64,000 nt of DNA from Tridacna crocea (taxonomy: Eukaryota > Mollusca > Bivalvia > Cardiida > Cardiidae). Each line of letters starts with the position of its first letter. Positions within the stretch are counted from its first letter, which is position 1. The position numbers and the translations under genes were made by a program. Below, piece by piece: positions 12,813 to 64,000 of this stretch. The stretch lies in contig OX031073.1 of NCBI GenBank assembly GCA_943736015.1, positions 25,695,210 to 25,759,209 on the forward strand, written 5' to 3'. The notes under the pieces are model-generated. The model did no database searches. It saw nothing but the letters and a program-made list of their open reading frames with translations, and had not been told where the DNA came from.

Positions 12813-12831
12813 GGGACATAGATTAACTATC

Positions 12832-14484
12832 AGAAATACCCTAGTGGCCCAGGAGACCTAGGTTTTGTAACAGAGACCCTCGTAGTTGTCCAGGAGACAT
12901 AGGTTTTATTCCATAAACCCATCATTATGGTCCAGGGACCATAGATTTTACGCAAGAAACCATGGTAGTGGTCCAGAGGACACAGGTTTTTGCCAGAAAC
13001 CCAACATAGTGAGCCAGGGAACAAAGATTTTATTCCAAACGACCAACATAATGGTCCAGGAAACATAGGTTTTATTCCAGACACCCAACATAATGGTCCG
13101 GGAAACATAGGTTTTATTCCAGACACCCAACATAATGGTCCGGGAAACATAGGTTTTATTCCAGACACCCAACATAATGGTCCGGGGAACATAGGTTTTA
13201 TTCCAGACACCCAACTTAATAGTCAGGGGAACATAGGTTTTATTCCATACACCCAACATAATGGTCCGGGAAATAGGTTTTATTTCATACACCCAACAAA
13301 ATAGTCTGGGGAACATAGGTTTTATTCCATACACCCAACATAATGGTCTGGGAAACATAGGTTTTATTCCATACGCCCAACATAATGGTCCAGGAAACAA
13401 AGGTTTTGTACTAGACACCCAACATATTATGGTCCAAGGAACATAGGTTTTGTACCAGAAAGCCAACATAATGGTCCAGGGAACATAGGTTTTATTTCAG
13501 ACACCCAACATAATGGTCAGGGGAACATACTATTAGGTTTTATTCCAGACACCCAACATAATGGTCCAGGAAACATAGGTTTTATTCCAGACACCCAACA
13601 TAATGGTCCAGGGAACATAGGTTTTGTACAAGAAAGCCAACATAATGGTCCAGGGAACATTGGTTTAGTTCTATACACCCAACATAATGGTCCAGGGAAC
13701 ATAGGTTTTGTACCAGAAACCCAACATAGTGAGGCAGGGAACATAGGTTTTACTCCAGACATCCAACATAATGGTTCAGGGAACATAGGTTTTATTCCAG
13801 ACGCCTAATATAATCGTCCAGGGAACATAGGTTTCATTCCAGGCACCCAACATAATGGTCCAGGGAACATAGGTTTTGTATCAGAAAGCCAACATAATGG
13901 ACCAGGGAACATAGGTTATATTCCATACACCCAACATAATGGTACAGGGAACATAGATTTTATTCCAGACACCCTACATAATATTCCAGGGAACATAGGC
14001 TTTATTCCATACACCTAACATAGTGGTCCAGGAAACATAGGTTTTATTCCAGACACCCAACATAATGTTCCAGGAAACATAGGTTCTATCCAAACACCCA
14101 ACATAATGGTCCAGGAAACATAGCTTTGATTCCAGACACCCAACATAATGGTCCAGGAAACATAGGTTTTATTCAATACACCCAACATAATGGTCCAGGA
14201 AACATAGGTTTTATTCCAGACACCCAACATCTTGGTCCACAGGGAACATATGATTTATTCCAGACACCCTATGTAATGGTCCAGGAAACCTAGGTTTTGT
14301 ACCAGAAAGCCAACATAATGGTCCATGGAACCTAGGTTTTGTATCAGAAAGCCAACATAATGGTCCAGGGAACATAGGTGTTGTACCAGAAAGCCAACAT
14401 ATGGTCCAGGGAACATAGGTTTTGTACCAGAAAGCCAACATATGGTCCAGAGAACATAGGTTTTATTCCAGACACCCAACATAA
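12832..14484. repeat. 42-bp minisatellite, main block
   Basis: About 39 tandem units of 42 bp; for example ACACCCAACATAATGGTC recurs at 13081 and 13123. Each unit carries GGTCCAGGGAACATAGG and TTTTATTCCAGA. Homogeneity is highest around 13060-13260 and falls towards the left edge. Because the period is 14 codons, both strands give long periodic open frames (unit peptide GIKPMFPGPLCWVS on minus, NIGFIPDTQHNGPG on plus). Nothing shows they are translated. Confidence 0.97.
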
Positions 14485-44973: not shown

Positions 44974-45202
44974 AACTCTTTACCAAACAATCCTGTGTTT
45001 TTCACAACCATGAGAAAGAAGCCTTCTGAAAACATTGAGAGAAAAGGAGAAAATGCTGGTAACCAGCATTTTCTCCTTTTCCCACAATGTTTTCTTCCCT
45101 TCCCAAAACAAATTTCAAATTTTCAGTCACTTTTACTTTGTCATCTGCAAATGCTTTCAATTTGGACCAGTCTAAAATTTTGTCATTTGGTAAAGAAATA
45201 AT
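44974..45202 (-). repeat. TTAA-A element immediately upstream of the Trio-family first coding exon
   Basis: Well-preserved palindrome at 45030-45095. It ends about 113 bp before the ATG at 45316, so it lies in or next to the promoter or 5' UTR of that transcript. Confidence 0.8.
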
Positions 45203-45315
45203 GATTTAGAAACAGACATAATGCCTGGAAGCGAACATAAGATTGTAATGAATTTATCTACAGCATTAGTATGGATAAACAGAATTGACTATAAGTTGGA
45301 ACAATATTCAAAATC
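45203..45315 (+). promoter_or_regulatory. 5' leader of the Trio-family transcript, with a short upstream ORF
   Basis: In the frame of the main ATG there are TGA (45286) and TAA (45292) codons shortly upstream, which fixes ATG 45316 as the start unless an acceptor lies in the last 20 bases. A five-codon upstream ORF (MDKQN) occupies 45271-45288. TTTATCTACAG at 45253-45263 could be an acceptor from a non-coding exon further upstream. The transcription start cannot be placed. Confidence 0.45.
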
Positions 45316-46390
45316 ATGAAACGTAGAAGGAGAATTGAGTCGGATGATAGACAAAATTCTACCCCAGAGGATGGGGCTCCTCACTGTACATCAAGTTTAG
45401 ATCGACGAAGAGTAGTGTTGCGCTGCGAAAATGGGCACAGATCTTCCTGGCATGGGACCACTCCATCTACATCTATAGAACAGGGGGCCAGTAGTTCAGA
45501 CTCGTCAGGGGTCACTGTTAGATCACAAAGCCATGGTAATTTGCAAGCTAGGGCTAAGCCTAGACTTAAACTGTTTCACAGAAGAAGTTACCCGGTCAAC
45601 CCAACACCTCCAGCCTCACCATCTAAAGACTCTAATGTATCAAGTCTCAGAACATTCTTTCAGAATATCAAGAGGGGTAAACTGAAAGCTGGAAAACATG
45701 CCAGCAAACTTACAAAACATGTATCCAATAAAGGCATTGCTGAAGCAAATAATAATGGTGATGCTACTACAAGTGCTAAAAGTGCTAACGATGTTGATGA
45801 TAATGATGATGTAGATGGAGATCAAACAGCTAAAAAGAGAATTAGAACTAGTCCTGAAATAGAAAATGATGAAAGTGATGACAGTGATGTTGCAATAAAG
45901 GGTCTTAGGGTCCAGCTCATCCCGGAAGGGCAAGATTTAGGTGCAACATGTGCCAACTGGGACAGTTTCTCTGATAAAAATTCTGATCCACAGAGATCAC
46001 AACTGTCTGACTTTGTTGTGACTTCGTCCGAAATATCTAGACCAGGACCCCATCCAATTCACACATTCCAAAGGCCTCAAAGTAGGTCAACGTTACAGAA
46101 CCAGTCGAGAACTTCAATATTTACAAGGGGCCGTTCTAAAAAGTCTGTGATACAGGAAGTTGAGGACAATTTAACTCATCCAGTGATAATTGCTATCTTA
46201 TCTGTGATAAACTTTGTACTCTGGGTGTTTCTGTTTGGTGCTAGTATCATCAGAAAGGGATCTGTTGTTGCCTTATGGATATGGCTGAGACTTTTGTATT
46301 TATTTGACTTCTTTCTCAAACTCTTCTACAGGATTTTTAACCTGGACCCAGAGAAGGCCAACCAGAACAGTGACTATACCCATATAGAAG
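45316..46390 (+). CDS. TRIO: Exon 1: disordered basic head plus hydrophobic hairpin
   Basis: It encodes residues 1-358 and the first base of codon 359; donor GTAAGA. Residues 1-40 are Arg-rich (starts [11 protein letters not shown]). 41-285 are Ser/Asn/Asp/Lys-rich, with an acidic stretch at about 158-195 ([12 protein letters not shown]), and likely disordered. Residues about 288-312 ([20 protein letters not shown]) form a clear membrane segment, then a short basic RKG link, then a second, more amphipathic hydrophobic stretch at 315-343 ([18 protein letters not shown]). No signal peptide. The tail DYTHIEG resembles the SINHIET that precedes the same repeat in vertebrate TRIO, so the join point is the ancestral exon boundary (inference). 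A hairpin would keep both ends cytosolic, as in reticulon or spastin-type anchors. Confidence 0.8.
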
Positions 46391-49300
46391 GTAAGAAGTC
46401 CAATTTCAAACTTTGCTTTAACCCTTTACCTCATAAGGCATTTCTATGGTATCTCTAATTGACCCTAAATAACAGCAAGGATGAAGCCTTTTCTTACGTG
46501 TATATGACACCTTTTGGTAGTGTAGAAAACATAGTGGCAAAAGGTGAAATTGCTCGTGACGACAATGTTCTTTAAAGGCTTCTGCAAGCAATGCGTAGAA
46601 ATGAGTATCCATGGAGTAAAGGGTTAAGTCTTTACCAAATGACAAAATTTTACCCTGATTCCTACCACACTATCCCTACTTTTAATGACGGTGAGAAATA
46701 AAGCTTTTGAAAACATTGTGGGAAAAGGAGAAAATGCTGGTAACCAGCATTTTCTCCTTTTCACACAATGTTGTCTACCATTCCGAAATAAAATTTCAGT
46801 ATTTGATTCACATTTATTTTGTCTTCTGCAAATGCTTACAATTTGGACTTGTTCAAAATTTTGTCATTTGGTAAAGATTTAATAGCAAGTGCAGACAAAA
46901 ATGTGATTCAAAAATTGAAATTTGGTTTCAGAAGGGTAAAAAATATTGTGGGAAAAGGAGAAAATACTGGTTACCAGCATTTTCTCCTTTTCCATCAATA
47001 TTTCCCTAAAGCTCTCTCAGGGTCGTTAAATGTTGTGATTGTGTGGTTAGGGGTTAAATTTTACAACACATGCCTATGTTTTTAGGCTCCCAAGGATTGA
47101 TATAATATTTTAGCTCACCTGAGCACGAAGTGCTCAAGGTGAGCTATTGTGATCGTGCTGTGTCCGTCGTCTGTCGTCAACTTTTTACCTTGTGTACACT
47201 CTAGAGGCCACATTTTGGGTCCGGTACTCATGAAAGTTGGTCAGGATGTTTGTCTAGATGATATCTCGGATGAGTTCGAAAATGGGTCATGTGGGGTCAA
47301 AAACTAGGTCACTAGGTCAAATCTTAGAAAAAAAACTTGTGTACGCTCTAGAGGCCACATTTTCAGTCGGATACTCATGAAAGTTGGTCAGGATGTTTGT
47401 CTGGATGATATCTCGGACGAGTTTGAAAATGGGTCATGTCGGGTCAAAAACTAGGTCACTAGGTCAAATCTTAGAAAATACTTGTGTACGCTCTAGAGGC
47501 CACATTTTCAGTCCAAAATTCTTTGAAGTTCTTCAGAATGTTTATCTTGATGATATCTCGGACAAGCCCGAAAATGGTTCATGTCAGGTCAAACTAGGTC
47601 ACTAGGTCAAATTTTAGAAAAACCTTGTGTACGCTCTAAAGGCCACATTTTCAGTCGGATACTCACGAAAATTGGTCAGGATGTTTGCCTGGATGAAATC
47701 TCAGACAAGATCGAAAATGGGTCATGTGGGGTCAAAAACTACGTTACTAGGTCAAATTTTAGAAAAACCTTGTGTACACTCAAGAGGCCACATTTTCAGT
47801 CCAAAACTCTTGGAAGTTGGTCAGGATGTGTGCCTGGATGATATCTCGGACAAGTTCGAAAATGGATCATGTGGGGTCAAAAACTAGGTCACTAGGTCAA
47901 ATCTTAGAAAAACCTTGTGTACGCTCTAGAGGCCACATTTTCAGTCCAAAACTCTTGAAAGATGGTCAGAATTTTTGCCTTTATGATATCTTGGACGAGT
48001 TTGAAAATGGGTCATGTGTAGTCAAAAACTAGGTCACCAGGTCAAATGTTAGAAAAACCTTTTTGTAGGCTCTACAGGCCACATTTTCAGTCCAAAACTC
48101 TTGTTAGTTGGTCAGAATGTTTGCCTTGATGATATATTAGATGAGATTGAAAATGGGTCATTTGGGGTTAAAAACTAGGTCACCAGGTCAAATCTTAGAA
48201 AAACTTTGTATATGCTCTGGATGCCACATTTTCAGTCCAACACTCTTAAATCAGTCAGATTGTTTGCCTTTATAATATCTTGGATGAGTTTGAAAATGGG
48301 TCATGTTGGGTCAAAAACTGGGTCAATAGGTCAAATGTTATAAACACCTTTTTTATGCTCTGGAGGACACATTTTCAGTCTGATACTCCTAAAACTTGTT
48401 TGTAATATTTGTCCTGGTGATACCTTGAATGAGTTTGAAAATGGGTCATATGGAGTCTGAAACTGTCACTGGGTCAAATATTAGAAAAACCTTGTGTACA
48501 CTCTAGGGGTTACATTTTCTGCCTGATACTCTTCAAACTTGGTCAGAATGTTTGTTTTAGTGATGTCTCAAAAGAGTTTGATAATGGGTAATTGTCGGGT
48601 CCAAAACTAGGTCTCTTGGTGAAATCTTAGAAAAACCTATTGGTCAGAATGTTTGTCTTATTGATATCTCAAAAGTGTTTGATGATGGGTAATGTCTGAT
48701 AAAAAACTAGGTCACTGGGAAACTAGATGGTTCATGTTTGGTCAATAGACTCAGGTGAGCAATTTCAGGGCCATCATGGCCCTCTTGTTTATTGTTTCAT
48801 GCTTTTTTTAACATTATTTCAGTTACATCAGGATGGCCAGTGCACCTATCAATGCTTTTCTGTAGCTTTTATATCTTAGAACAATAATCTTCTTAAGCTA
48901 CTGGCTGCTTTCCCAACATAACCATTGCTGAGAAAATATTCAGCTGTGAGAGAAGTATGCAAATACCATCATTAATCCTTGGAAAGAAACTGGCCAAACA
49001 TGTTCCTTAACTCTTTACCACACAAGAAAATTTTAGACTGGTCCAAATTGAAAGCATTTGCAGAAGACAAAATAAATGTGACTGAAAAATTGAAATTTGT
49101 TTTGTGAAGGGTAAAAAACATTGTGGGAAAAGTTACCAGCATTTTCTCCTTTTCCCACAATGTTTTCTAAAGGCTTCTTTCTCAGGGGCGTCAAAAGTAG
49201 GGATTGTGTGATAATGGGTTAAAACAGTTTTAATAGGCCATTTAACTCTTTACCAAACAACAACATTTTAGACAGGTCCAAATTGAAAGCATTCACAAAC

Positions 49301-52300
49301 AACAAAATAAATGGGACTGAAAATTTGCAGTTTCTTTTGGGAAGGGAAAAAAACATTGTTGGTAAAGGAGAAAATACTGGTTAACCAGCATTTTCTCTTT
49401 TTTCCCCCACAATGTTTTCAGAAGGCTTCTTTCTCAGGGTCATTAAAAATCAGGATTGTGTGGTAATGAGTTAAGGCTTAACTTGATTGTTGGAATAATA
49501 TAGCGCCTACTGGCTGAAAATTTTAGTGGAGAAAATGGGTCTATATTGACTTACAATGTATGAGCATGAAAAAGGTGCAAAGAAGAAGTTTTACTGTATA
49601 TTTTTTTATTGCAGGAGTATTACGGCAGTTGAATGAGAGTCGAACACAACTTGAAGAACTTTGGGCCAACAGAGAGTTGAAGCTTGACCTATGTCTGCAA
49701 CTAAGGCTGTTTGAAAGAGATTCTCTTGAGGTAAATAACTAAGTGAAATGGTTCTAGAGATGTCAAAAAAGTATCAGAAAAGTGCAATAACTTTTTGATA
49801 AAACTTCTCCTATAGAATATCACCCAGAGAAGTTTCCCCCTGTTACTACTACAAAATTGAAAGCATTCAGCAAACTGCATTGGCTCTTTGGAAAGAAAGT
49901 TGGAAAGAAAGTTGTGTTAGTACTGGTGTGCGAAAGCCAGGAAATACACGTGCGTCACCGACCGTCATGATATGACCTTAGCTGTTAAAATGGCGCTAAA
50001 CCCCAATACAACCAACCAACCAGCATTTGGCTCAGATGATTGTGGTTGCTTTGAAAGGTTAGAAAACACTGAGGTAAAAAGAAATAAAACGTTTCTTAGT
50101 TTACATTATTTTAGACTCATCTATATTGAAAATATTTCCCCCTTTACTACAACAAAATTGAAAGCATTTAGCAAATTGCATTTAGCTCAAATGATTGCGT
50201 TTGCTTTGAGTGGTTAGAAAACACTGAGGTAAAAGGAAATAAAATGTTTCTTAGTGTACATTATTTTAGACTCATCTTTATTGAAAGTACATGTATTTGA
50301 AGTTCGTCTCCAGCATTTTCTCCTTTTTCTACAATGTTTTCAAAGACTTTTTTTTTCTCAGGGTCGTAAAAAGTCGGGATTGTGTGGTAAAGAGTTAAAA
50401 CTTGGGATAGTGTGGTAGAGAATGAATAAGCATAGAGTAAAACATTCTCTATAGATTGTCAGGTGACATGTAAACAAGATGAGGGATTTATGAACAAGTA
50501 TTTTGTGGTTTGTGAACATGCATATATATATATGCATGAATGAATGAGACAATTATGATCAATCAAAAAGATCTTGTGACTGTTAATCCTTTACCACACA
50601 ATCCAGACATTAAAGGACCCTGAGAAAGAAGCCTTTTAAAAACATTGTGGGAAAAGGAGAAAATGCTGAATACCAGCATTTTCTCCTTTTTTCACAATGA
50701 TTTCTGCCCGTCCCAAAACAAATTTCAATTTTTCAATCACATTTAATTTGTTGTCTGCAAATGCTTTCATTTTGGACTCGTCTAAAATTTTCTTGTGTGG
50801 TGAAGAGTTTAAACAACCGCAGTCACTTAACTCATTACCAAACGACAATATTTTAGACTGGCCCAAATTGAAAGCATTTGCAGACGACAAAATAAAAGTG
50901 ACTGAAAATTTGAAATTTGTTTTGTGAAGGATAAAAAGAATTGTGGGAAAAGGAGAAAATGCTGGTTACCACGTTTTCTAAAGGCTTCTTTCTCAGGGGC
51001 GTCAAAAGTAGGGATTGTGTGGTAATGGGTTAAGAGTTGAATTTGAAACCCAGGTTGGTCCTTTTTTCGATTTTCACCAAAAATAGTTGGTTTCACGTAG
51101 GAGTATTTTTTGCCCAAAACATATTGGAGACCCAGCCTATTGCTAGTGAAACAAAGGACAAGTTTGAAAGAGCATTGCCCTGTGAAAAGGGGCTTAACCC
51201 TGTACCAAACAAACCCCTTTTTTACGACTCTGAGATAAAGGCCTTTTGATAACATTGTGGGAAAAGGAGAAAATGCTGGTAACCAGCATTTTCTCCTTTT
51301 TCCACAATGTTTCCTACCCTACTGGAAACAAATTTCAGTGTTTTCAGGGGTACACTGGAATCACCCTGTCTGTCCTTGTGTCCCTCCGTGTGTCCGTCTG
51401 AGTACAAAATACTAGTAATTTTGTGTCGTAAACTTCTCCTACAGTTTTGCTTCAATTTTATGGAAACTTTGCACATATATTGATGTTATATTGAAGATTT
51501 GCCAGACACATTTTTCAAGTGTCAACTCCTCCTAGTTGAGGAATTATCTCCCCCTTGAACTTGACATTTTTTTCTGTTAAAGTGCTGGCAGGGGTATAAT
51601 GATGACTTTTGATGACCTTGTGAAAGAGGCCTTTGGTGATAACCAGCATTTTTTCCTTTTTCCACAGTGTTTTCTACCCTTCTTAAAACAAAATTCAATT
51701 CTTTAGTCACTATTATTTTGTCATCTGCAAATGCTTTCAATTTAGAGCAGTCTAAAATTTTATTTTTAGTTACAGCTCTAGTTCAGTCCATTGTAAAATA
51801 CAAAATAGAATTTATTGATTGATTTTAATGTGATAACTTGCTTGGTAACATGCATCACAGTGATGCGTTAAACCCCTTTTTACTAGAGCATGCTTCAAAG
51901 ATCTTTAACAGTGATGATGGTGAAAATAAATGTTGAAAGCGTTGTTGGGTTCAAGCCATTACCACACAATCCCTACTTTTGACGACCCTGAGAAAGAAGC
52001 CTATAGAAAACATTGTGGGAAAAGGAGAAAATGCTGGTAACCAGCATTTTATCCTTTTCCCACAATGTTTTCTACCATTCACAAAACAAATTTCAAATAT
52101 TCAGTTACTTTTATTTTGTCATCTGCAAATGCTTTTGATTTAGACAAGACCAGAATATTTTCTTTTGGTAATGAATTAACACCATTTAACTTTTTACCAA
52201 AAAACGAAAATTGTAGACATGTCCAACTTGAAAGCATTTGCATACACAACAATTGTTTCAAATGATGTAAATTGCTTTTGAAAAGGAAGGAAACATTGTT

Positions 52301-55300
52301 GGAAAAGGAGAAAATATTGGTTATTGATTTTGTGGTAACAGGTTAGCATTCAATTAAGAAGTAATCTTCTTTCAATCGTGGTTTATCATTCAATAAACCA
52401 CAGCTGTGGGTTATGAGGCACAACAAATAATCCACAAGGGTGACAGCTCAAGTGGTTTATTCGTTGTGCCTCATAACTCACAATGGTTTATTGAAGGATG
52501 AACCACGATTCAAAAAAGATTATTTCGATTCTAACATGGCGAATTCTTAATGAAAGGAAAACAAGTTCAAACTGAGAGTAAAAACACGGATGAAGATAAC
52601 CCACTCATTGAATGACATCACTCAATACAGAATGACATCACTCTACATGGATTGTCGCAGATTTTACCATCCTTTCCTTGCACTGTGTTTATAGAGCCGA
52701 ATTCGCCTGTCATGTTAGAATTAATGATCAACAATCAGGACCTTTCTTATGTTGACTTCAGGTATCTTCCCAGCTAGAGCTGTGGGCAGAAGAACTACAA
52801 CATCAAGAGCTGGTCACGGATGGGAACAAGGCAGAACAAATGCTAGTGATGCACAATGAGAGTGTACTGCATATGCAGAACTGTACATTCGAAGTCCTAC
52901 AGAGAGGGCAGGAGCTGGCCCAGGTATGGACCCTTCTTTTACATGACTGCTCTCATGTATTTACAGGGCTTTGTCTTTATTTTCTGCTTGGCTATAACTC
53001 AGTGGTTAACATATCGGACTTGTGATACGGGGTTAGGTACCTGGTTTTGTCAAACTTTCTTTCTGTTAGTATTCTGCCTCTCATTCCAGATACATGTGAG
53101 AAAAGTATTCAGTGACTTTGAGAGGAAGTTTTGTCAGTACTGGAGTGAGAAAACCAGGAAACACATGCATAGATACACTGGCCACCATGATATGACCTAA
53201 GCTGTATTAATCCTTTGCCAAACAATTCCTGGTTATTATGACCCAGAAGAAGCCTGCGGAAAACATTGTGAGAAAAGGAGAAAATGCTGGTACCCAGCAT
53301 TTTCTCCTTTTCCCACAATGTTTTCTGCTCTACCAAAGTCAAGTTTCAATTTTTGAGTCACATTTATATTGTCGCCTGCAAATGCTTTCAATGGGGACAA
53401 GTCTAAAATTTTGTCATTTGGAAAAGACTTGAACCCCAATATAAACAAACTTTATTTATCTGTCCAGTGGCTGATGAGAGGCATTGCAACAGGCTTGAAT
53501 CTTGTCTCCCTGCAAAACACTGTTTCAGGTTTGTTCATATTGGAAAGCAGTAAATGTCATGGACAGAGTACTATACAAAGTACTTGTAGTGAAATTCCAG
53601 GAATGCATGGACAGTTACACCAGTATGCCATGCTATATATATGCAACACAATACAATTCTGAACCTTTTACCAAACAGTCCCTGGTTTTTATGACCATGA
53701 GATAGATGCCTTTTGAAAACATGGTGGCAAAAGGAAAAAAGGCTGGTAACCAGCATTTTCTCCTTTTCCCACAATGTTTTCTACCCTGCTGAAAACAAAT
53801 TTCAATTTTTGAGTTACATTTATTTTGTCATCTGCTGGTGCTTTCAATTTGGACCAGTCTAAAAATTTGTTATTTGGTAAAGGGTTAACTCTTTAACAGT
53901 CAGTATATTTGGTGGTAAAACATTGGTTTAAATGGTGAAAGTTGCCTTTGCAAGTGTAGAAACATTGTTGAAAATGTATGCCAGTTACCAGCACTCACTC
54001 CTTTTGCTACAATGTTTTAAAATGCTAACTTCTCCAAGGTTGAAATTAATGGCTTATTAGGTGCGGGTTTACCCCTTTACCGCATGATCCCTTGTTTTAA
54101 CAGCTGTTAGGAAGAAACCTGTCGAAAACATGGTGGGAAATGCTGGTAACCAGCATTTTCTCCTTTTCCTACAATGTTTTCTACCCTGATAGGGTCAGGT
54201 TTCATCAATTTAGCCACATTTAGTTTGTTGTCTGCAACAGCAGTTTGAATTTGGTAAAGAATTACTCAGCAAACAGACACTGTTTTGTTTTCTAGCTGTT
54301 TGAGACGACAGGGGTACAGTTGATGGCAGATTCCCACTATGATGCTCCAACAAGAATACAAGAATTGTTGGAATATTTACACGAGAGAGAAGTGGACCTC
54401 GAGACTCTAGCAGACTCGAAGAGGAACCGTCTAGAACAATGTGTTCAGTTGCGTAACTTTGAAAATGAGGCAAGACAGGTAAGTGTAGCACTGTAGACAT
54501 TTTTCAGCTCTTAACCCTTTACCACATAATGCCCACTTTTGACGACCCTGAGAAAGCAGCCTTTTTGAAATCATTTTCTCCTTTTTCCACAATGTTTTTT
54601 TTCCCTCTTTGATGTATATTTCAAATTTTCAGTCACTTTCAGTTTGACGTCTGCAAATGCTTTCAATTTGGACCAGTCTGAAATTCTGTCGTTTGGTAAA
54701 GAGTTAACTCTTTACCAAACGACAAAATTTTAGACTGGTCCAAATTGAAAGCACTTGCAGATGACAAAATACACGAAACTCAGAAATTGAAATTTGTTTT
54801 CAGCTAGGTAGAAAACACAATGTTTTCTAAAGGTTTCTTTCCCAAGGTCGTCATAAGGAGGGATTGTGTGGTAATGGGTTAAACTTTATGAGCCCATGCT
54901 TGTTGAAAAGTGGCTGTAATACATCTGCAAAAGGCATCAACTCACGTCAGCTTATGAAGGCTGTGCAGGTAGAAACTTTATGCTATTGGTCATTTTCTGG
55001 GGGTCAAAGGACGGTTCTATCTCATGATTAAATCTGTTGTAAAACAAAATTTTACGCATCCATTATTGTGGTATGACTTGCTTGCTATAGTGTGTCACGG
55101 AGATACGTTAAACCCCCTTTTACCAGAGCATGGCTCTAATGGAGTAGAATGTAAAGGATGATAGGGCCAGCAACATGTAAAAAGGGGCATTCGGACATTT
55201 GCGTAAAGTGCCCTCAAGGATCAGCCTGCGCAGTGCATGCAGGCTGATCCTAGACGATACTTTTCATTTTTATGTAATTTTCTGTTTCGCACAAGTCTAC

Positions 55301-58300
55301 TGTAGCACAAAATCTAATGTAGTTGTAAAATGCCATCTGGGATAGCCTGCGCAGACAGCGAAGGCTTATCTGAGACAACACTTTAACGCAATTGTCTGAA
55401 TGCCTGTTTTTGCGTGTTGCAGGTCATGTGGCTTGCAACATGCAAAAAGGGGCTTTCAGACATTTCCATAAAGTGTTGTCTTGGATTACGAGACACCACT
55501 TGATATCAGCATTAAATTTTGTTGATGGTAGGTTATTACATGGATAAGACATGGAGAATCCATGCTGACTGCCAGCTTCATGTGTTTACCTCTGTTTCTA
55601 TAACAGGTTATTACATGGATAAGACATGGAGAATCCATGCTGACTGCCAGCTTCATGTGTTTACCTCTGTTTCTATAACAGGTTATTACATGGATAAGAC
55701 ATGGAGAATCCATGCTGACTGCCAGCTTTATGTGTTTACCTCTGTTTCTATAACAGGTTATTACATGGATAAGACATGGAGAATCCATGCTGACTGCCAG
55801 CTTCATGTGTTTACCTCTGTTTCTATAACAGGTTATTACATGGATAAGACACGGAGAATCCATGCTGACTGCCAGCTTCATGTGTCCAAACTCTCTGATG
55901 GAAGCAGAGCAGCTGAAGAAAGAACAAGACCAGTTTATGTTGGCCATTGAGGTAAACTTTACCAGATGTTTGGGAATGAATACTTATCTGCAGACATGCT
56001 CCATACACCATATTTATACATTTAACTCTTTACCACACGACAAAATTTTAGACTGGTCCAAATTGACAGCATTTGCAGACAACAAAATAAATGTAACTCA
56101 AAAATTGAAAATTGTTTCCAACAGGGTAGAAAAACAGTGTGGGAAAAGGAGAAAATGCTGGTTACCAGCATTTTCTCCTTTTCCTACAATGTTTTCAAAA
56201 GGCTTCTTTCCCAGGGTCGTTAAAAGTGGTAAAGAGTTAAACTTTCTTTTACTTCTGCCAAAAGAAAACCTGTATACCTCTTTGCCATGCTAGAGAATTT
56301 TAGACTTATCCATTTTGAACATTGTTTATTGGAAAAGGAAAAAATACTGGTCAGCATGAACATATGGTAGCAACTGTATCCAGGTTGTAGAATGTGTAGA
56401 ACCCATGTATATTCAGTCAATTTAATCACAGAAGATTTGCATAGTGATCATTGGCCATCATCTACCAAATATCAGGTTTGTTTTTGTGTCAATATCCAAT
56501 GAAGAACAGTCAAGCTTGACTTTAATACATTCACCATAAATTGGAGCTGCAAACATATTTTTTTCATTATTCAAGACAACTTAATGTAAAAAAATGCAAA
56601 AACAATGCATACAAAGGTCACCCATATACCAGGACAAACTCACAACATGGAAGGTCTTAAATGTTGTTTTGTATAATAATTTACTGTCAGAAAACCCACC
56701 TTTAACATGGAAGTTACCCAATCATTGTTTTATACTTTCAGAAAACCCATTACAGTGTGGTACAAGTGACACAAAAGGCAGAAAATATGATTGGTTTACA
56801 ACATTATAACTCTGATAGGGTACGAGCCATCGCTGAAAATGTCACGTTAGAGTGGCAACAGTTGAGAAATCACGTAGAAGAGAGACACAAACTTGTGATG
56901 GCCTCCATGACCTGGTATAAATATGCCGAACAGGTAAATTTGGAATTTGATGTTACAAACCAAAGCTGATTTTTAGCTAAGCTTGTGTGTAAAAAAGACA
57001 AAGGTTTTTTCTTAGCCTTTCCATTGTCTGTGTTGTTGTTGATGTTAAAAAACTTTAACCCACTACCACTCAATCCCTACTTTTGATGCCCCTGAGAAAG
57101 TAGCCTTTTGAAAACACTGTGGGAAAAGGAGAAAATGCTGGTAACCAGCATTTTCTCCTTTTCCCACAATGTTTTCTACCCTTCACAAAACAAATTTCAA
57201 ATTTTGAGTCACTTTTATTTTGTCGTCTGCAAATGCTTCCAATTTGGACCAGTCTAAAATTTTCTCGTGTGGTAATTAGTTAACATGTACAGCTATTTCT
57301 GTCATGATTTTCTAGATAGATATTTTACTTCATACTCTTTCTTGTTGTGAAGGGTTCATTGTATGGTGGTGTTTAGTACTATTTTCTACATTATTACAGT
57401 TATATTGTGGTGGCCAGTGCACCTATCAGTGCTACCTTGAGTGCCTGTTACCAGTATTCTGCACAATATTTCTTCCAAGCCACTGGCTGCTTTCCCATAT
57501 AACCAGCATTAAAATAGTAGTCAGCTGTGAGAGAGGAATGAATCTTGTCACAATGAGTACATCAATCCATGGAAAAATTTTGCTGATTTTTGGCTCGGAA
57601 AGCAACCTCCTGTTCGCAAGACTTGTACACTGCTGGCTGAGCTACCCGGCTCTGCTGTGAGAGGTTCATGTAGTAATTGTAATTGTTATAATTTACTGGG
57701 GCATGTCATGCTTGGACGAGCTGAAGATTAATGTGAAAAATGGAATGGATGTCAAAAAATAGAACTGTGAAATAATTCTACTTCCTGTTTCTACTTCCAG
57801 GTGTGGTCAGTGCTGGAGAGTTTAGACCGGGACTACAAGAGAGATGAAGATTGGTGCGGGACAGAACGCGCCAACTCCTCAGATAAACCTAGCTATATGG
57901 TGCAGCTTATCAACAAACATAGTGAACAGAAAGAAGCTTTTCTGAAGGTATAGTGGGCTTGTATGCAGTGTCCAAACACAGTTAACTCTTTACCAAACAA
58001 CAAAATTTTAGACTGGTCCAAACTGAAAGCACCTGCAGACGACGTAATGAATATAACTCAAAAACTAAAAATTTGTTTCCAGCGGGGTAGAAAACATTGT
58101 GGGAAAAGGAGAAAATGCTGGTTACCAGCATTTTCTCCTTTTCCCACAATGTTTTCCAAAGCTTTCTACAATAGGGTCATTTAAAGTCGGCATTGCGTGG
58201 TAAAGGGGTAAGTTTGTGTCTGAACTCTTGACCACAAAAGCCCAAATTTTAAAGACCCTTAAAAAGAAGCAATTTGAAAACATGGCTGAAAAGGGAAAAA

Positions 58301-61300
58301 TGCGTGTAACCAGCAAAAATGTGTTCAACCTTATCGGAGGCAAATTTCATCATTTGAACCTTCTATCATTTGTCCTCTACAAATGTTTTCAATTTGATCA
58401 AGTCTTATTTGATTGATTTGTAAAAGTTTTCTTTTCTCGTAGTTAGAGACAAGGAAATTTGTAATGGCTGTATTATTGGACAGAGTAGATCAAGGATTAC
58501 ACTGTACATTCTGTCCTGTCTGATCATGAACTCACTATGTGCAAAAAGTAAGCAAGTCATGTTTAGCAGCCTAAGAGTTAATGCGATGCCGGATGAATTT
58601 GGTTTTGATCGAAATCTGATGTTGTGTTGAAAGTACTAGGACTTCGAAATGGTAAAAATTGATAAACAGCATTTTCACCTTTGTCAAGCAATATATACCC
58701 ACAACGTAGTGGAGGGGTGTACTGGAATTGCCCTGGCTGGCTGTCCCTATGACCGTCCGTCTGTCCGTAGACGCAGATTTGTCTGGAGCAGTAATCCAAC
58801 AGTTTTTCAAGCACTGAACTCAAATGTACACAAAGTGTTCCTATATATATGAAGTTGTGCATGTGCAATTTTTATGACCCTGCTGCAATTCTTTTTAAGG
58901 AATTATCTCCCCTTGAACTTTTTTCAACTCTTACGTTTGTACTAAACCATTCTGCATTCTGTGACAAAGACCTGTTTTTGTAACAAGGAGCTTGTGGGGG
59001 GTGAAATCATGTTAAGGGAAAGCTCAAGTTTCAACTTTTGGAAGAAAAATACTATCATTTGAATAACATGGGATTTGTTTTACAGGCTTGTACTTTAGCC
59101 AGAAGATCAGCAGAACGATTCTTGAAGTATGTTAACAGAAATCTACACACATTGGGCATGCAGATGAAATTTAGGAGCACAGAGGCCCATGTGAAAAGTA
59201 AGAAACAAACCGTTTTCGTTGTGAATGCCAAATACGTGTTTGACCCTATACCAAACAATCATGACTTAAACTGTTGACCTCCTGAGAAAACCTCAGACCA
59301 GTACAAATTGAATGCACTTTGATACAACAAAATAAATGTGACAAAAATGTTGAAATTTGGCTTAGGAAGGATAGAAAACATTGTGAGAAAAGGAGAAAAT
59401 GCTGGATACCATTACAATGTTTTCAAAATGCTTCTTTATTGGGCTCATTAAAAGCCGGAATTGTGTGGTAAAGAGTTAAATGTCCCTGAGATTGAAGCCT
59501 TTTGAAAATATTGTGGGAAAAGGAGAAAATGCTGGTAACCAGCATATTCTCCTTCTCCCACAATGTTTTCTACCCTTCCCAAAACAAATTTCAATTTTTG
59601 AGTCACTTTTTATTCTATCGTCTTCCATTGCTTTTGATTTGGACAAGTCTTAAATTGTGTCATTTGGTAAAATGTTAACACTTAAACAGCTGATTCACCC
59701 AACCAATACTTTCGGTCAACCTCCTGGCTTTAAGCTGTGTACATTACAAGTGAACTATCAGGCTTGGCTATATGATATTGATACAGAGGGAAAAAGTGAT
59801 GACGATAAAAAAGGGGGAAAACTCTTTAACTCTGTACCATACAATCCTGTGTTTTAACAACCTTGAGGAAAAAGGCTTTTAGAAACATTGTTGGAAAAGA
59901 AAAAAATGCTCCTAAGCAGCATTTTGTTCTTCCCCCACAAAATTTTCTACTCTGTCACAGACAAAACTCGTCATTTGAGTCACATTTAATTTTTCGCCTG
60001 CAAACCACAAAATTTCAGATTCCCTTAAGTTCAAAGTATTCGAAGATTGCAGATTATATAATATCTAAATCAGGGGGACTTTTTCTCTGAAAGGGTAGAA
60101 AACATTTTGAAAAAAGGAGAAAATGCTGATTCCCCTTTACCCACAAAGTTTTTACAAGCCCCTTACCTCAGGGTGGTTATAACTTGGGATTGCATGGTAG
60201 AGAGTTTAAGCTACCGTGCATTTTACTTTAATTATTATGTTCTTACGAACATGAAAGTTTGCAACAAATACGTAGATGAAATACAAACCGCATCTGGGGG
60301 GATTCAAACCCATGATGTGCAAATATCCTCGTTTTTTGAGGTTTAAAAGACCAATACCATAACCACTGAGCTAAAAAGATATCTCCCCAATGCATTTGTC
60401 CGGTATTGTGTTTAACTCTTTACCAAACGATGGAATATTAGACTTGTCTAAATTTAAAGCATTTGCAGACAAAAAATTAAACATGACTCTAAAACTGAAA
60501 CTTGACTTCAGGAGAGAAGAAAACATTGTGGGAAAAGGAGAAAATGCTGGTAACCAGCATTTTCTCCTTTTCCCACTATGTTTTCAAAAGCTTTCCTTCC
60601 CAGGTCTTTAAAAGTCGGGATTGTGCGGTAAATAGGAACAAAGCCATGCATGAAGGAGTGGTCTGTTACAATGTTTTTGTTTTCATTTCACACAGAGACC
60701 CTAGACTCCTTGCTACAACAGGAGAACGTTGTGATAGAATATTGGACCATGAAGAAAAAGAAGCTGGAACAATGTCACCAGTATGTGTTGTTCGAACAGA
60801 GCGCCAAACAGGTATGGAAATTCATAGAGTCTAGAGCATTGTGATATTCAAGAATTGGGTCTTCACTTTCAGACTGAAAATAAGAATAGTTGAAATAACC
60901 CAAAGTAGAGCTCCTTTGAACCAAAAGAGAATTAGCATTTCCCATACTTTAGCCAAATTGACAGAATTTTGGTTGTTCAGATTAAAAATTTGTATGGGTT
61001 ACATTGTCCATATTAACTCTTTACCACACAATCCCGACTTTTAACGATCCCCAGAAAGAAGTCTTCTGAAAACACTGTGGAATAAGGAGAAGATGCTGGT
61101 ACCCAGCATCTTCTCCTTTTCCCACAGTGTTTTCTACCCTTCCCATCCCAAATTTTAATTTTTCAGTCACCTTTATTTTGTTGTCTGCAAATGCTCTCAA
61201 TTTGGACCAGTCTAAAATTTTCTTGTGTGGTAAAGAGTTAAAAGAATCTGTAGGTGACAAATTGAGTATAGTTTTAACAATGGTATTTTTCTGTGGAAGG

Positions 61301-62914
61301 TTAGATAATATCGTTGGAGAGGAAGAAAACAGAAAATGCTTTCTTTCAACATACCTTTTCCAACACTGTTTTCAAAAATCGGTATTCTTTGGAGTTTTTA
61401 AAAACATTGGATTGGTGGATAACTTGTCAAGCAAATCCAAGGACTCATTTAACTGTTTACCAAATGACAAAAATGTAGACAGGTCCAAATTAAAAGCATT
61501 TGCAGATGAAAAAATATATGTGACTGAAAAATTTAAATTTGTCTTGGAAAGGGTAGAAAACATTGAGGGAAAAGGAGAAAATGCAGGTTACCAGCATTCT
61601 CTCCTTTTCCTACAATGTTTTCAAAAGCCTTCTATCTTAGGATTGTAAAAAACTAGGGATTGTTAGGTAAAGGGGTAAAGGGTTAAGGGATGGCATTGCA
61701 ATAGTATGACACCATCAATTTGTTACTTCATAGTTGGTTGTTGTTGCTGTTTGGTAGTAAATGATGTTTTCAGCAATATCAGTTATATTGGAGCTGCCAG
61801 TGCACCTATTGATGTATTTCTTTTACCAATACTTTGCAATATATTTTTTCCAAGCCACCAGTGGCATGCATTCTGGTTGAAAAACACCATCCAAACAATA
61901 GTGGTGAGAGAGGTATGAACCTGTCACAATGATGACTGTCAATTCATGGGAAGACAAATGGCCAGGTTTGGGAATCAAACCAACAACCTAAGGGTTTCAA
62001 CCCCTGTACATTACTGAGTTATAACCGAGTAACTAGGCTCAGGGAATAAATAAGAAATAATCTTCTTTCTATCATGATTTATTGTTCAATAAAACAAAGT
62101 TGTGAGTTAGGAGGCTTAATAAATTATCCACGGGGGCGATAGCCCAAGTGGTTTATACATCGTGCCTCATAACTCAAAATATGGTTTATTGAACGATAAA
62201 CCACAATAGAAAGAGGATTATTTCAACTCTTAACATGACCAACTCTTAATCAAAGGAAAACTAGTTAGGTCATATTTAGAGTGAAAACGTGGATGAAGAT
62301 TGTATTCCATTGAATAACTTACTTTGTACAGAATGACGTCAGTCTATATGGAATCATGTCACTCTACATAGAATAACATAGATTTTACCACGTTTCGTTG
62401 CACTATGTTTATAGAGCAGAATTCACGTGTCATGTAAGAATTAACCCTTTACCACATTAATCTGAATTGTTAAGATCCTGAAGAAGAAGGCCTTTAAAAA
62501 CACCATGGGAAATAAGAAATTGCTGCTAACCAGCATTTTATTCTTTTTGCAGAATGTCATCTACTCTATCAAGGACAAAGTTTTGTCATTTGAGCCACTT
62601 TTGGTTTATCATCTGCAAATATTTTCAATTTTTGATGAGTCTATATTTTTGTCGCATGGTAAAGAGTGTTTGAATCCAGTGAAATGGCAGTCAGTGGCTC
62701 CCTGTATTCATAGAGTTATAACTGTGAATAAATAGCTGGGACACAGATTAAAAATTGTTAATAAATAGCTAGCTCTTTATATTCTCCACAGGTGTTAGAG
62801 TGGATTAAAGACTATGGAGAGTCTTACCTAAACTCACACACACACTTAGGATCTAACCAGGTAGAGACAGAAGCTCTACTCAGAGAACATTATGACTTCA
62901 GGGCCAAGGCAAAG
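45316..62914 (+). CDS. TRIO: Trio/Kalirin/UNC-73-family RhoGEF, alternative membrane-anchored N-terminus plus middle spectrin repeats (continues past the window)
   Basis: Ten exons: 45316-46390, 49615-49730, 52762-52923, 54296-54478, 55832-55951, 56742-56933, 57801-57947, 59086-59197, 60696-60811, 62792-62914. All introns are GT-AG, phases agree, total 2346 nt or 782 codons, with no stop. Exons 2-10 follow vertebrate TRIO/KALRN from mid-protein: [79 protein letters not shown]. They cover roughly spectrin repeats 5 to 8. Family members activate Rac1, RhoG and RhoA through two DH-PH units that lie C-terminal to these repeats and would be beyond 64000. The canonical N-terminus (Sec14 domain and first repeats) is absent; exon 1 supplies a different head with a hydrophobic hairpin. 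It could be an alternative-promoter isoform of the full gene or a separate shortened paralogue; upstream DNA to position 1 shows no canonical N-terminal exons. Confidence 0.9.
46418..47056. repeat. TTAA-B then TTAA-A elements
   Basis: 46418-46627 is TTAA-B (minus, one palindrome arm shortened). 46640-46881 is TTAA-A minus. 46881-47056 is a partial plus copy ending GGGGTTAA. Confidence 0.8.
47111..48790 (+). mobile_element. CACCTGAGC-type element with about ten ~145-bp tandem units
   Basis: 5' end TAGCTCACCTGAGCACGAAG and the palindrome GAGCACGAAGTGCTC. Then GTGTCCGTCGTCTGTCGTC, then units of ~145 bp (GAGGCCACATTTTCAGTCC, GAAAATGGGTCATGTGGGG), decaying rightward. Near the 3' end the tip is repeated inverted (CTCAGGTGAGC), then CAGGGCCATCATGGCCC and TCTTGTTTA. 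It has the same plan and the same 3' palindrome as 32162-33845 though the interiors are unrelated. The periodic open frames are a by-product of the repeat. Confidence 0.85.
48815..49474. repeat. SINE fragment and two TTAA-A copies
   Basis: 48815-48985 matches the body of the inverted SINE at 57398-57665 (GCCAGTGCACCTATCA, CACTGGCTGCTTTCCC-like) without its head. 49007-49222 and 49242-49474 are TTAA-A, both plus. The first has lost part of the left core. Confidence 0.75.
49615..49730 (+). CDS. TRIO: Exon 2: start of spectrin-repeat region
   Basis: Phase 1 in, phase 0 out. 38 codons after the split Gly: [20 protein letters not shown] then [18 protein letters not shown]. Vertebrate TRIO at this place reads VLQQLDEAQSQMEELFQER and LQLRIFERDA, a close match. 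Helical heptad pattern. Confidence 0.9.
49731..52761 (+). other. TRIO: Intron 2
   Basis: It holds a SINE 3' part 49880-50023, TTAA-A copies 50310-50398 (right end), 50583-50812, 50827-51033 and 51193-51345, repeat J 51345-51600, TTAA-A 51600-51765 and 51955-52179, a fragment 52187-52345, and the F palindromic element 52358-52725. 50040-50300 has two copies of a CTACAACAAAATTGAAAGCA block. Confidence 0.75.
52358..52725. repeat. Palindromic element F
   Basis: Nested inverted repeats: GTGGTTTATCATTCAATAAA with its inverse, and GAGGCACAACAAATAATCCA with its inverse. The right part has ATTCTAACATGGCGAATTC and its inverse 170 bp later. A second copy is at 62048-62445. Confidence 0.75.
52762..52923 (+). 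CDS. TRIO: Exon 3: spectrin repeat
   Basis: Phase 0/0, 54 codons: [16 protein letters not shown] ... [15 protein letters not shown]. Vertebrate TRIO has DLESWNDELSQQ and NLTFDVIHQGQDLLQ at the same positions. Confidence 0.9.
52985..53205 (+). mobile_element. Degraded SINE in intron 3
   Basis: Head CTATAACTCAGTGGTTAACAT, body with ACATGTGAGAAAAGTATTCAG and CACCATGATATGACCTAAGC, relative of 26774-27036. Confidence 0.7.
53207..54270 (-). repeat. TTAA-A copies in intron 3
   Basis: 53207-53432 and 53660-53888 are nearly complete, both minus. 53885-54060 and 54070-54270 are degraded. 53440-53655 resembles the SINE-body block of 5330-5465 (GGAAAGCAGTAAATG). Confidence 0.7.
54296..54478 (+). CDS. 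TRIO: Exon 4: spectrin repeat
   Basis: Phase 0/0, 61 codons: [18 protein letters not shown] ... [18 protein letters not shown] ... [16 protein letters not shown]. Vertebrate TRIO has ASGVELLCDRDVDMATRVQD and [16 protein letters not shown]. Acceptor TTTTGTTTTCTAG, donor GTAAGT. Confidence 0.92.
54511..54882. repeat. Two TTAA-A copies sharing one TTAA
   Basis: 54511-54707 (minus) and 54704-54882 (plus) share TTAA 54704-54707. Both have most of the central palindrome deleted. Confidence 0.75.
54883..55500. repeat. Dispersed palindrome-bearing repeats in intron 4
   Basis: 55080-55140 has CGTTAAACCCCCTTTTACCAG. 55160-55500 opens AAAAAGGGGCATTCGGACAT, contains GATCAGCCTGCGCAGTGC with its inverse, and closes with a related inverted block (ATGCAAAAAGGGGCTTTCAG). 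It is a short non-autonomous element. Confidence 0.55.
55532..55831 (+). repeat. TRIO: Four tandem 75-bp copies of the exon-5 acceptor region
   Basis: Units start at 55532, 55607, 55682 and 55757. The real exon 5 at 55832 is the fifth. Each unit is the first 54 nt of exon 5 ([12 protein letters not shown] to MC) followed by a 21-nt pyrimidine-rich tract ending CTATAACAG, so units 2-5 each have a good acceptor. Unit 1 has a different flank (GTTGATGGTAG). The units differ from one another at only two or three sites, all synonymous. In the reading frame each extra unit ends TTA CCT CTG TTT CTA TAA, so using an upstream acceptor puts a stop before exon 5 proper. Confidence 0.92.
55832..55951 (+). 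CDS. TRIO: Exon 5: spectrin repeat
   Basis: Phase 0/0, 40 codons: [20 protein letters not shown] then [20 protein letters not shown]. Vertebrate TRIO has WIRNGESMLNAG and SLQEAEQLQREHEQFQ. This is the last of five tandem copies of the acceptor region and the only one that continues into the rest of the exon and a donor (GTAAAC). Confidence 0.92.
55952..56741 (+). other. TRIO: Intron 5, with a TTAA-A element at 56022-56240
   Basis: The TTAA-A copy is plus-oriented with an exact central palindrome. 56241-56741 is otherwise without recognisable features, ending in the acceptor TTTATACTTTCAG. Confidence 0.75.
56742..56933 (+). CDS. TRIO: Exon 6: spectrin repeat
   Basis: Phase 0/0, 64 codons: [18 protein letters not shown] ... 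[20 protein letters not shown] ... YKYAEQ. Vertebrate TRIO has KTHQSALQVQQKAEAML, IRDCAEKVASHWQQLM and YKTSEQ. Confidence 0.92.
57055..57283 (-). repeat. TTAA-A element in intron 6
   Basis: Complete; exact palindrome at 57112-57176. With 57982-58209 it forms an inverted pair around exon 7. Confidence 0.85.
57398..57665 (-). mobile_element. tRNA-derived SINE, antisense, in intron 6
   Basis: On the minus strand the head reads GAGCCGGGTAGCTCAGC. The body phrases GCCAGTGCACCTATCAG and CAAGCCACTGGCTGCTTTCC recur at 48815-48985 and 61766-62046. The right-end head is diverged. Confidence 0.75.
57801..57947 (+). CDS. TRIO: Exon 7: spectrin repeat
   Basis: Phase 0/0, 49 codons: [20 protein letters not shown] ... 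[13 protein letters not shown]. Vertebrate TRIO has SVLESLEQEYKREEDWCG and [13 protein letters not shown], among the strongest matches in the window. Confidence 0.95.
57982..58440. repeat. TTAA-A elements in intron 7
   Basis: 57982-58209 (plus) begins 34 bp after the exon 7 donor. 58215-58440 is a degraded minus copy. Confidence 0.8.
58680..59030. repeat. Dispersed repeat J
   Basis: GGGGTGTACTGGAATTGCCC and CCGTCCGTCTGTCCGT lead into the GAAGTTGTGCATGTGCAATT block shared with 28380-28600. The relative at 51345-51600 begins GGGGTACACTGGAATCACCC. Confidence 0.7.
59086..59197 (+). CDS. TRIO: Exon 8: spectrin repeat
   Basis: Phase 0 in, phase 1 out, 37 codons plus one base: [20 protein letters not shown] ... 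STEAHVK. Vertebrate TRIO has ACTLARRNADVFLKYLHRN and APEQQVKN. Confidence 0.93.
59240..60208. repeat. TTAA-A copies in intron 8
   Basis: 59240-59480 plus (degraded palindrome), 59476-59688 minus, 59825-60000 minus and 60060-60208 plus (degraded). Confidence 0.65.
60285..60380 (-). repeat. Antisense tRNA-like sequence (SINE head or tRNA pseudogene)
   Basis: Minus strand reads TTTTTAGCTCAGTGGTTATGG, then GGGTTTGAATCCCCCC about 50 nt later: A and B boxes at tRNA-like spacing with a long anticodon-side insert. The arms do not pair well enough for a working tRNA. Confidence 0.55.
60412..60635 (+). repeat. TTAA-A element in intron 8
   Basis: Exact palindrome at 60523-60587. It ends about 60 bp before the exon 9 acceptor, and the right TTAA is lost. 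Confidence 0.8.
60696..60811 (+). CDS. TRIO: Exon 9: spectrin repeat
   Basis: Phase 1 in, phase 0 out, 38 codons after the split Lys: [20 protein letters not shown] then [18 protein letters not shown]. Vertebrate TRIO has ILNELLQRENRVLHYWTMRK and LDQCQQYVVFERSAKQ. Confidence 0.95.
61013..61241 (-). repeat. TTAA-A element with symmetrically changed palindrome
   Basis: The centre reads GAGAAGATGCTGG (61087-61099) and CCAGCATCTTCTC (61102-61114): the usual AAAAT/ATTTT is AAGAT/ATCTT in both arms. Confidence 0.85.
61242..61686 (+). repeat. TTAA-A copies in intron 9
   Basis: 61242-61440 is degraded. 61449-61686 is plus-oriented with TTAA at both ends. Confidence 0.75.
61766..62046 (-). mobile_element. 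tRNA-derived SINE, antisense, in intron 9
   Basis: Minus strand: GAGTTATAACTCAGTAATG-type head, then GGTTTGATTCCC. Body shared with 57398-57665. Confidence 0.75.
62048..62445. repeat. Palindromic element F, second copy
   Basis: Matches 52358-52725 throughout, including GAGGCTTAATAAATTATCCA and the two CATCACTC/CATGTCACTC phrases. Confidence 0.75.
62443..62670 (-). repeat. Degraded TTAA-A element
   Basis: TTAACCCTTTACCACATTAATC at the left; the right end is GCATGGTAAAGAG. It abuts element F. Confidence 0.65.
62792..62914 (+). CDS. TRIO: Exon 10: spectrin repeat (last exon in the window)
   Basis: Phase 0/0, 41 codons: [20 protein letters not shown] ... [14 protein letters not shown], donor GTGAGT. 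Vertebrate TRIO has ALEWIHDNGEFYLSTHTSTG and LLKEHEEFQITAK. Confidence 0.93.
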
Positions 62915-64000
62915 GTGAGTCATACAAAAGTTAACTTGGTGTATCAAGTTTAAATAGTCTATTTCAGACTGTGTTGCTCAAAGTTAGAGGGCAAAGGATG
63001 TGCCATGTAATCCTTGATCTGCACTTTCTGCTTCTGTGAGAAATATTATGGCAAAAATCTCCTTTCAGTAACCGTGAATTGGTCTGACTACTTGTATATC
63101 ATCAGTCATTTCGAATGTAAATAACATTTTTTATGCCAAAAATCAGTACTCTGCCTGGACTCTACAGATCAAGATCAAACTGCCTTAACTCATTACTAAA
63201 CGTCAATATCTTAGCCCTTTACCAAACAACAAAATTTTAGACCGGTCCAAATTGAAAGCACTTACAGACGACAAAATAAACAGAACTCAAAAATGGAAAT
63301 TTGTTTCTAGCAGTGTAGAAAATATTGTGGTAAAAGGAGAAAATGCTGGTTACCAGCATTTTATCCTTTTCCCACAATGTTTTCGAAAGGCTTCTTTGTC
63401 AGGGTCGTCAAAAGTAGGGATTGTGTGGTAATGGGTTAACTCTTTACCACACAATCCCGACTTTTATAGACCCTGAGATAGAAGCCTTTTGAAAACATTG
63501 TGGGAAAAGGAGAAAATGCTGGTAACCAGCATTTTCTCCTTTTCCCTCAATGTTTTCTAACCTGCTGGAAACAAATTTCAGTTTTTGAGTTAGCATTTAT
63601 TTTGTCGCCTGCAAGTTCTTTCAATTTGGAGAAGTCTAAAATTTTGTCGTTTGGTAAAGGGTTAACTAAGAGTGGATTGGTCTTACTGCTTGTATATCGT
63701 TTGTCATTTCGAATGTAAATTACATTGTTTTTGTCCACAATCAGTACACTGCCTGAACTCTACAGATCAAGATCAAACTGCTTTAAAGGGGCCTGTATTC
63801 TCCAACCATTCTTAAGGATATCCTTTTTTATTTGCCCACAGGTCGTTGGTCCATCTGTCTTTCCGTTACCAATTGCACAACTCCTCCTACAGTTTTCATT
63901 GGAATAAGTTCAGACTTACAATAATGAATCTCTATGATGTGTAGTTGTGTATGTGACTTTTAAAACTTGATATTCTGCAGGGTTTTAGATTTTAATCCAT
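62915..64000 (+). other. TRIO: Intron 10, incomplete
   Basis: It holds TTAA-A copies 63212-63438 (plus) and 63435-63665 (minus) sharing one TTAA, duplicated CAGATCAAGATCAAACTGC blocks (63167 and 63766) and repeat-J-like sequence from about 63800. No exon is seen before the edge. Confidence 0.7.

Follow-up and report, generated by a model that had tools for sequence, protein, structure and literature searches.

The interval 45316-46390 of the giant clam Tridacna crocea probably serves as an intragenic alternative first exon of a Trio-family RhoGEF gene and, judged from its sequence, would give rise to a predicted membrane-anchored isoform devoid of the Sec14 domain. It lies in a stretch of 64,000 nucleotides, referred to here as the window (contig OX031073.1, C18:25695210-25759209); positions without a prefix are those of the window and positions preceded by C18 are those of the contig. 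The original prediction had treated the 1075 nt as a single first exon. It is made up of two parts: the canonical 59-nt Trio exon (46332-46390) and a 1016-nt in-frame 5' extension (45316-46331). The extension is open and coding-like, as had been proposed, but the exon is not free-standing, its last 59 nt being the canonical Trio exon with an acceptor of its own. What sets the proposed form apart is therefore limited to 45316-46331.

The Trio locus and its linker exon

The Trio exons were mapped by searching a joined segment of 264 kb (the window plus 100 kb on each side) with a kalirin probe, and genome-wide searches covered 1.05 Gb in 31 contigs. Spectrin repeat numbers and helix letters are those of kalirin. 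With this probe a Trio/Kalirin gene is found on the + strand of the 264 kb, represented by its N-terminal half. Sec14 exons are located on the same strand at C18:25645865-25651857 in five pieces, the first of which is weak (E 0.17) and the rest at 3e-6 or better. The genome search with Pfam CRAL_TRIO_2 lists no C18 match at the Trio locus, probably on account of the shortness of these exons. By the same probe, the exons for repeats 1-4 reach approximately C18:25676600. The exon for helices A and B of repeat 5 ends at C18:25678837 in phase 2 (ATG AG|GTGAGT), and an intron of 62.7 kb extends from there to 46332-46390. Downstream of the window, pieces of the DH1-PH1 module (GEF1) are matched by the kalirin probe at C18:25764634-25774548, and a Pfam RhoGEF match at C18:25769956 occupies a position fitting GEF1. 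A second RhoGEF match on the same strand, at C18:25964534, is weak (E 5.5e-4) and may represent the second DH domain.

The Trio exons agree one by one with the kalirin probe. Independently of the probe, two Pfam families are matched by the 456 amino acids encoded from the linker exon onward: Spectrin_6, 'Kalirin-like, spectrin repeats', at 1.5e-13, and Spectrin, at 4.7e-16. In the PDB, a sequence match to this spectrin part at E<=0.001 is given only by a pair of spectrin alpha chains, and not by Trio. Kalirin-type spectrin repeats, Sec14 exons and DH1-PH1 are all present at the locus, a combination that points to membership of the TRIO/KALRN family of RhoGEFs. A locus that begins in the middle of the protein is ruled out by the earlier exons that sit upstream. 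Since these exons, Sec14 included, are present, the proposed form would be one alternative form of the gene. The loss of Sec14 and the first repeats that had been predicted follows, for the proposed transcript, from exon order; most of repeat 5 would disappear as well, however, and the Sec14 exons do exist upstream. The features of this region are as follows.

45316-46331, + strand: 5' extension of the canonical Trio exon, proposed coding part of the intragenic alternative first exon (338 codons plus 2 nt)
46291-46331, + strand: polypyrimidine tract and CAG of the 46332 acceptor (acceptor score 7.1)
46332-46390, + strand: canonical Trio exon of 59 nt, loop inside repeat 5, phase 2 in and phase 1 out (better of two candidates)
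46391-46396, + strand: 5' splice donor GTAAGA (GAAG|GTAAGA; donor score 6.3)
49615-49730, + strand: Trio exon for helix C of repeat 5, kalirin numbering (acceptor TTGCAG|GAGTAT at 49615)
52762-52923, + strand: Trio spectrin-repeat exon, repeat 6 in the kalirin numbering (probe match, open splice join)
54296-54478, + strand: Trio spectrin-repeat exon (probe match, open splice join)
55832-55951, + strand: Trio spectrin-repeat exon, its 5' part within the final copy of a tandem array of 75-bp units
56742-56933, + strand: Trio spectrin-repeat exon (probe match, open splice join)
57801-57947, + strand: Trio spectrin-repeat exon (probe match, open splice join)
59086-59197, + strand: Trio spectrin-repeat exon (probe match, open splice join)
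60696-60811, + strand: Trio spectrin-repeat exon (probe match, open splice join)
62792-62947, + strand: Trio spectrin-repeat exon, 3' end approximate (probe match, open splice join)

A direct join between the upstream exon, with its phase 2 end, and the 49615 exon, which requires phase 1, is not possible: it is out of frame and meets a stop after 63 codons, whereas the canonical join through 46332-46390 remains open. A scan of the intron for linker exons (25-160 nt, acceptor score above 2, donor score above 3, right phases, no stop) yielded two phase-compatible candidates. Of these, 46332-46390 ranks first both by splice score (13.3 versus 9.6) and by comparison with the kalirin/TRIO linker (50 versus 32); as several real Trio acceptors fail the cut-offs of the scan, a further weak candidate is possible. 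In kalirin, the encoded peptide corresponds to a loop that ends in NHIE. In the joined repeat 5 this loop is spanned by Pfam DUF7799 with 25.7 bits, just below the 27-bit cut-off. Among 3826 intronic AGs, approximately 9 reach the score of the 46332 acceptor, this site included.

Use of an acceptor within the ORF would instead generate a full-length Trio variant with the anchor inserted into repeat 5. The frame shared by the ORF and the canonical exon speaks for this arrangement, which is nevertheless extremely unlikely: in the interval 45200-46331 four AGs have a score above 0 (1.7 at most), none of them is in phase with the upstream exon, and only 46332 fits. A variant of this kind spliced through a good internal acceptor is rejected on these grounds. 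The count takes in AGs scoring above 0, and some canonical Trio acceptors score down to -1.6, so weak sites may exist.

Coding character of the 5' extension

An ORF of 380 amino acids runs from 45316 to 46458 on the + strand. The stop expected just 5' of its ATG is indeed there, an in-frame TAA at 45292-45294, and no AG occurs between this codon and the ATG. Up to 46390 the ORF contains 358 codons plus 1 nt. The consensus donor that had been placed after 46390 is likewise borne out: it joins in frame to the nine downstream exons (49615-62792, the end of the ninth being approximate) and produces one open frame of 793 amino acids, which includes the Pfam Spectrin match given above. No stop codon occurs among the 338 codons of the extension; the remaining + frames contain 17 and 46. 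Not one of 3000 order-1 simulations lacked stops, which numbered 20.3 on average and never fewer than 7. At 387 codons the complete open run exceeds all others in the intron, where the runner-up has 242 codons, and in 40 simulated introns of 65 kb no run exceeded 257.

The sole in-frame ATG of the 387-codon run is its eighth codon. From 45316 to 46390 there are 23 out-of-frame ATGs, and none of the 357 codons after the start is an ATG, with the result that no in-frame AUG start inside the exon could bypass the anchor. Five ATGs are found in the 215 nt that precede the ORF ATG, four of them within 115 nt, and these count against the reading as a translated first exon. Genome-wide searches with the extension, in which only the best candidates were scored, returned one match by DNA and one by protein, and no other genome match to residues 1-289 was obtained at E<=10. 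A retrocopy of another gene in the same genome is rejected in view of these single matches. Pattern scans that gave 4 matching stretches in viral contigs and 80 in genome contigs disclosed no confirmed relative, as expected for an animal exon.

Coding potential was evaluated with a phase-specific order-2 model trained on the Trio exons and on the longest open frames of 14 genome stretches (six GPCR, two HSP70 and six B-box). The score is 0.154 bits/codon in the ORF phase, -0.142 and 0.002 in the remaining two; in leave-one-out checks the 14 frames range from 0.048 to 0.311. None of 302 intron windows of equal length attains 0.154 in any phase (highest 0.029), a null that is slightly flattered by the setting of the model background on the same intron. 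The ORF phase is the highest in all four quarters (0.134, 0.283, 0.096 and 0.086), and training without Trio leaves it at 0.152.

Cruder tests provide a mixed picture. Codon log-odds trained on the Trio exons alone assign -0.040 to the ORF frame and +0.025 to the next frame, which counts against coding, although the ORF frame is still near the top among 630 intron windows (highest -0.038). The synonymous-codon test is uninformative: 15.5% of intron windows score as high, and the Trio exons themselves reach only 0.049 per codon. Period-3 power is 6.6, a value matched by 3 of 656 intron windows, and it derives mostly from the middle third with its GAT runs; the last third, which contains the anchor, is devoid of a period-3 signal (36% of windows as high). 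The order-2 test outweighs the others because of its larger training set and its check on left-out genes. Overall the extension looks coding, strongly so by ORF length and by the order-2 model and less uniformly by the cruder tests.

A chance or decayed open frame of the intron that is never translated, with the 59-nt exon as the only real one, is a very unlikely source of these signals. It would account for the failure of the Trio-only log-odds and of the synonymous-codon test to single out the ORF frame, and for the other open run of 242 codons in the same intron. Against it stand the lack of any stop-free simulation and of any intron window with the ORF score, together with the order-2 values of the 242-codon run and of another of 202 codons, which are negative in every phase.

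In a sliding plot with the model trained without Trio, the ORF frame is positive from just after the ATG to the end of the exon and negative in two windows across and after the donor; beyond the stop it returns to +0.15 (46480-46599) and then to +0.01. The coding boundary at the 46390 donor is not sharp by this score, whose local fluctuations equal the signal of the last quarter. Another reading is that of a small membrane-protein gene in its own right, overlapping with the Trio exon. Its transcripts would start before 45316 and leave the donor at 46390 unused, and translation would proceed to the stop at 46456-46458 and deliver a 380-residue protein with head and anchor and without Trio domains. 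The ORF does run 22 codons past the donor, and intronic polyadenylation is a common mechanism. Such a gene is nonetheless unlikely: in the ORF frame 46391-46455 scores -0.24 bits/codon (few codons), the donor scores well, and the frame agreement with the Trio exon would have to be fortuitous.

Charged head, hydrophobic segments and the proposed isoform

The protein encoded by the extension is divided into three parts.

45316-46182, + strand: head, residues 1-289, charged, rich in Ser and Pro, with one Met (residue 1), from the translation
46183-46251, + strand: hydrophobic segment 1, residues 290-312 (Kyte-Doolittle 19-residue window up to 2.67; approximate insertion energy -1.0)
46261-46329, + strand: hydrophobic segment 2, residues 316-338, amphipathic and weaker (approximate insertion energy +2.3 to +2.7; moment up to 0.61)

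The head appears disordered by look only and displays basic clusters at residues 2-6 and 173-177. No Pfam family exceeds its cut-off in the extension protein, the only sub-threshold hit being AIM3 (E 0.16), and no relative was detected by PDB sequence search (best E 3.1). The two hydrophobic segments that had been anticipated are separated by a short basic link, RKG, but they are of unequal standing. Segment 1 is strong and passes by all three scales used. Segment 2 is weaker, and its second half is the translated pyrimidine tract of the canonical acceptor (73% pyrimidines); segment 1 lies outside the tract (60% over 46180-46251). The transmembrane prediction that had been recommended took the form of hydropathy and insertion energies, the latter being our own approximation of a published scale rather than a published predictor; the estimate favours segment 1 and is unfavourable for segment 2. 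By way of background, 516 of 9207 overlapping 54-codon stretches of the intron are open, and 6 of these 516 have a 19-residue mean of at least 2.6.

When residues 272-358 are modelled alone by AlphaFold2 without an alignment, helices are formed at 276-314 and 317-340 with a mean pLDDT of 75. This 87-residue single-sequence model has no PDB fold match at E<=0.001, and neither Pfam nor PDB sequence or fold searches relate the segments to a curated membrane-hairpin family (reticulon, REEP, caveolin and others). An alternative first exon might be real and its product peripheral rather than integral, with segment 1 alone inserting, or with the pair lying flat on the membrane or packing within the protein. 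The unfavourable, amphipathic and partly tract-derived segment 2 would be in keeping with this, as would the modelled helices with their lack of a fold match. Yet segment 1 passes three scales, and a single pass combined with a cytosolic GEF would consign a charged head of ~290 residues to the lumen with no evident signal peptide (by look), and this outcome too is regarded as improbable.

For the membrane-anchored isoform the following course of events is proposed. Transcription would begin inside the 62.7-kb intron and read through the 46332 acceptor, which would have no upstream exon to join and would stay unused, so that no new splice site is required. Translation from the only in-frame ATG would give the charged head of ~290 residues, followed by the two hydrophobic segments as a membrane anchor with both ends in the cytosol, a topology that we infer from the need of the GEF for a cytosolic substrate. 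Beyond the anchor the product would continue with the canonical loop and helix C from repeat 5, followed by repeats 6-9 and GEF1. Most of repeat 5 would be absent, as would repeats 1-4 and Sec14. Repeats 6-9 of Trio are described as enough for inhibition of GEF1 (PMC9467883), and the tethered form would therefore still be self-inhibited: a RacGEF permanently attached to a membrane, independent of Sec14 and retaining the repeat 6-9 brake. If real, an anchored Trio that keeps the GEF1-inhibiting part would be a natural experiment in which Sec14 lipid binding is separated from the spectrin brake. It would also imply the use of mid-repeat start sites, with a different coding content, in animals distant from vertebrates.

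As to the target membrane, the head could conceivably be a nuclear-envelope targeting cassette, a long shot that invokes NLS-like basic clusters (by eye), a disordered-looking linker of more than 110 residues and then the membrane segments. The same order of NLS, linker and membrane segments is described for inner-nuclear-membrane import of the Heh1/Heh2 type (PMC4695851). Should this idea be correct, the isoform would bring both a spectrin rod and a Rac/Rho exchange factor to the nuclear envelope, in the manner of a nesprin endowed with a catalytic output.

Intragenic starts have been described in mammalian Kalirin, where a Delta start drops Sec14 and four repeats (PMC11630257, PMC3048553). 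Delta-Kalirin isoforms are stated to begin at exon 11 (PMC3541206), and a 2024 study describes a further Delta start that overlaps exon 12 in its own numbering (PMC11630257). A published exon-13 primer, translated by hand, reads SAMSNNKTP, the linker homologous to 46332-46390 (PMC3541206). The proposed form would resemble Delta-Kalirin, as far as described in these sources, in its intragenic start, in the absence of Sec14 and the first four repeats and in the retention of the later repeats and GEF1. The Delta-Kalirin start lies two exons earlier, at exon 11, whereas the proposed form would start at the exon-13 equivalent and would also lose the exon for helices A and B of repeat 5; its start does not precede the exon-11 equivalent, as one of Delta-Kalirin type would. 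Delta-Kal7 is reported to be soluble and cytosolic, and the Delta 5' region to have start codons followed by stops (PMC3048553). The proposed first exon, by contrast, would encode a head of ~340 residues with a predicted anchor, which the Delta 5' region, in the account given there, does not.

The Kalirin first exons 1B and 1C provide front peptides, that of 1C being a phosphoinositide-binding amphipathic helix (PMC9823006). Exons 1A-1D are comparable with the proposed form in that an alternative first exon changes membrane behaviour; they differ in preceding Sec14 and in supplying short 'front peptides', none of which is described as a transmembrane anchor in the portion of the report consulted (PMC9823006). 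In published accounts of Kalirin isoforms, the N-terminus changes along with membrane behaviour and neuronal effect.

Nesprins and other KASH proteins combine a spectrin-repeat rod with a C-terminal membrane anchor and lack a GEF. The likeness to the proposed form is confined to a rod joined to an anchor; by description they differ in the C-terminal position of the anchor and in having no GEF. The anchor of Solo/Trio8 is likewise said to be C-terminal. Solo/Trio8 is described as membrane-associated (PMC4536496; also named in PMC8467920) and parallels the proposed form as a short membrane-associated Trio isoform with one GEF, from which it is set apart, according to these sources, by the possession of Sec14 and spectrin domains. 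A Trio or Kalirin form with an N-terminal transmembrane anchor does not appear among the titles and abstracts listed from the open-licence literature, in agreement with the initial impression that none was known.

Repeats and open runs in the intron and the window

A MITE-like palindrome, GAGAAAATGCTGGTAACCAGCATTTTCTC, yields 104 matches on the two strands with up to 3 mismatches (expected 0), which correspond to 56 distinct places in the window, among them 897, 45047, 46728 and 63510. None is situated within 45076-46727, the region of the ORF; longer free gaps exist elsewhere. The repeat with its palindromic core at 45047-45075 lies just upstream, and approximately 110 nt before the ATG are repeat-free by eye. 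On the - strand, 12830-13469 holds overlapping ORFs of a short tandem repeat composed of GIKPMFPGPLCW-like units. The 202-codon open run, which carries no coding signal, is located in the same intron upstream of the window, at C18:25687968.

At 55530-55885 a 75-bp unit is repeated 4.7 times with 98% match and includes a 3' splice site together with the initial 18 or so codons of the 55832 exon. As the array repeats a splice site, several near-identical acceptors are arranged in a row ahead of this exon.
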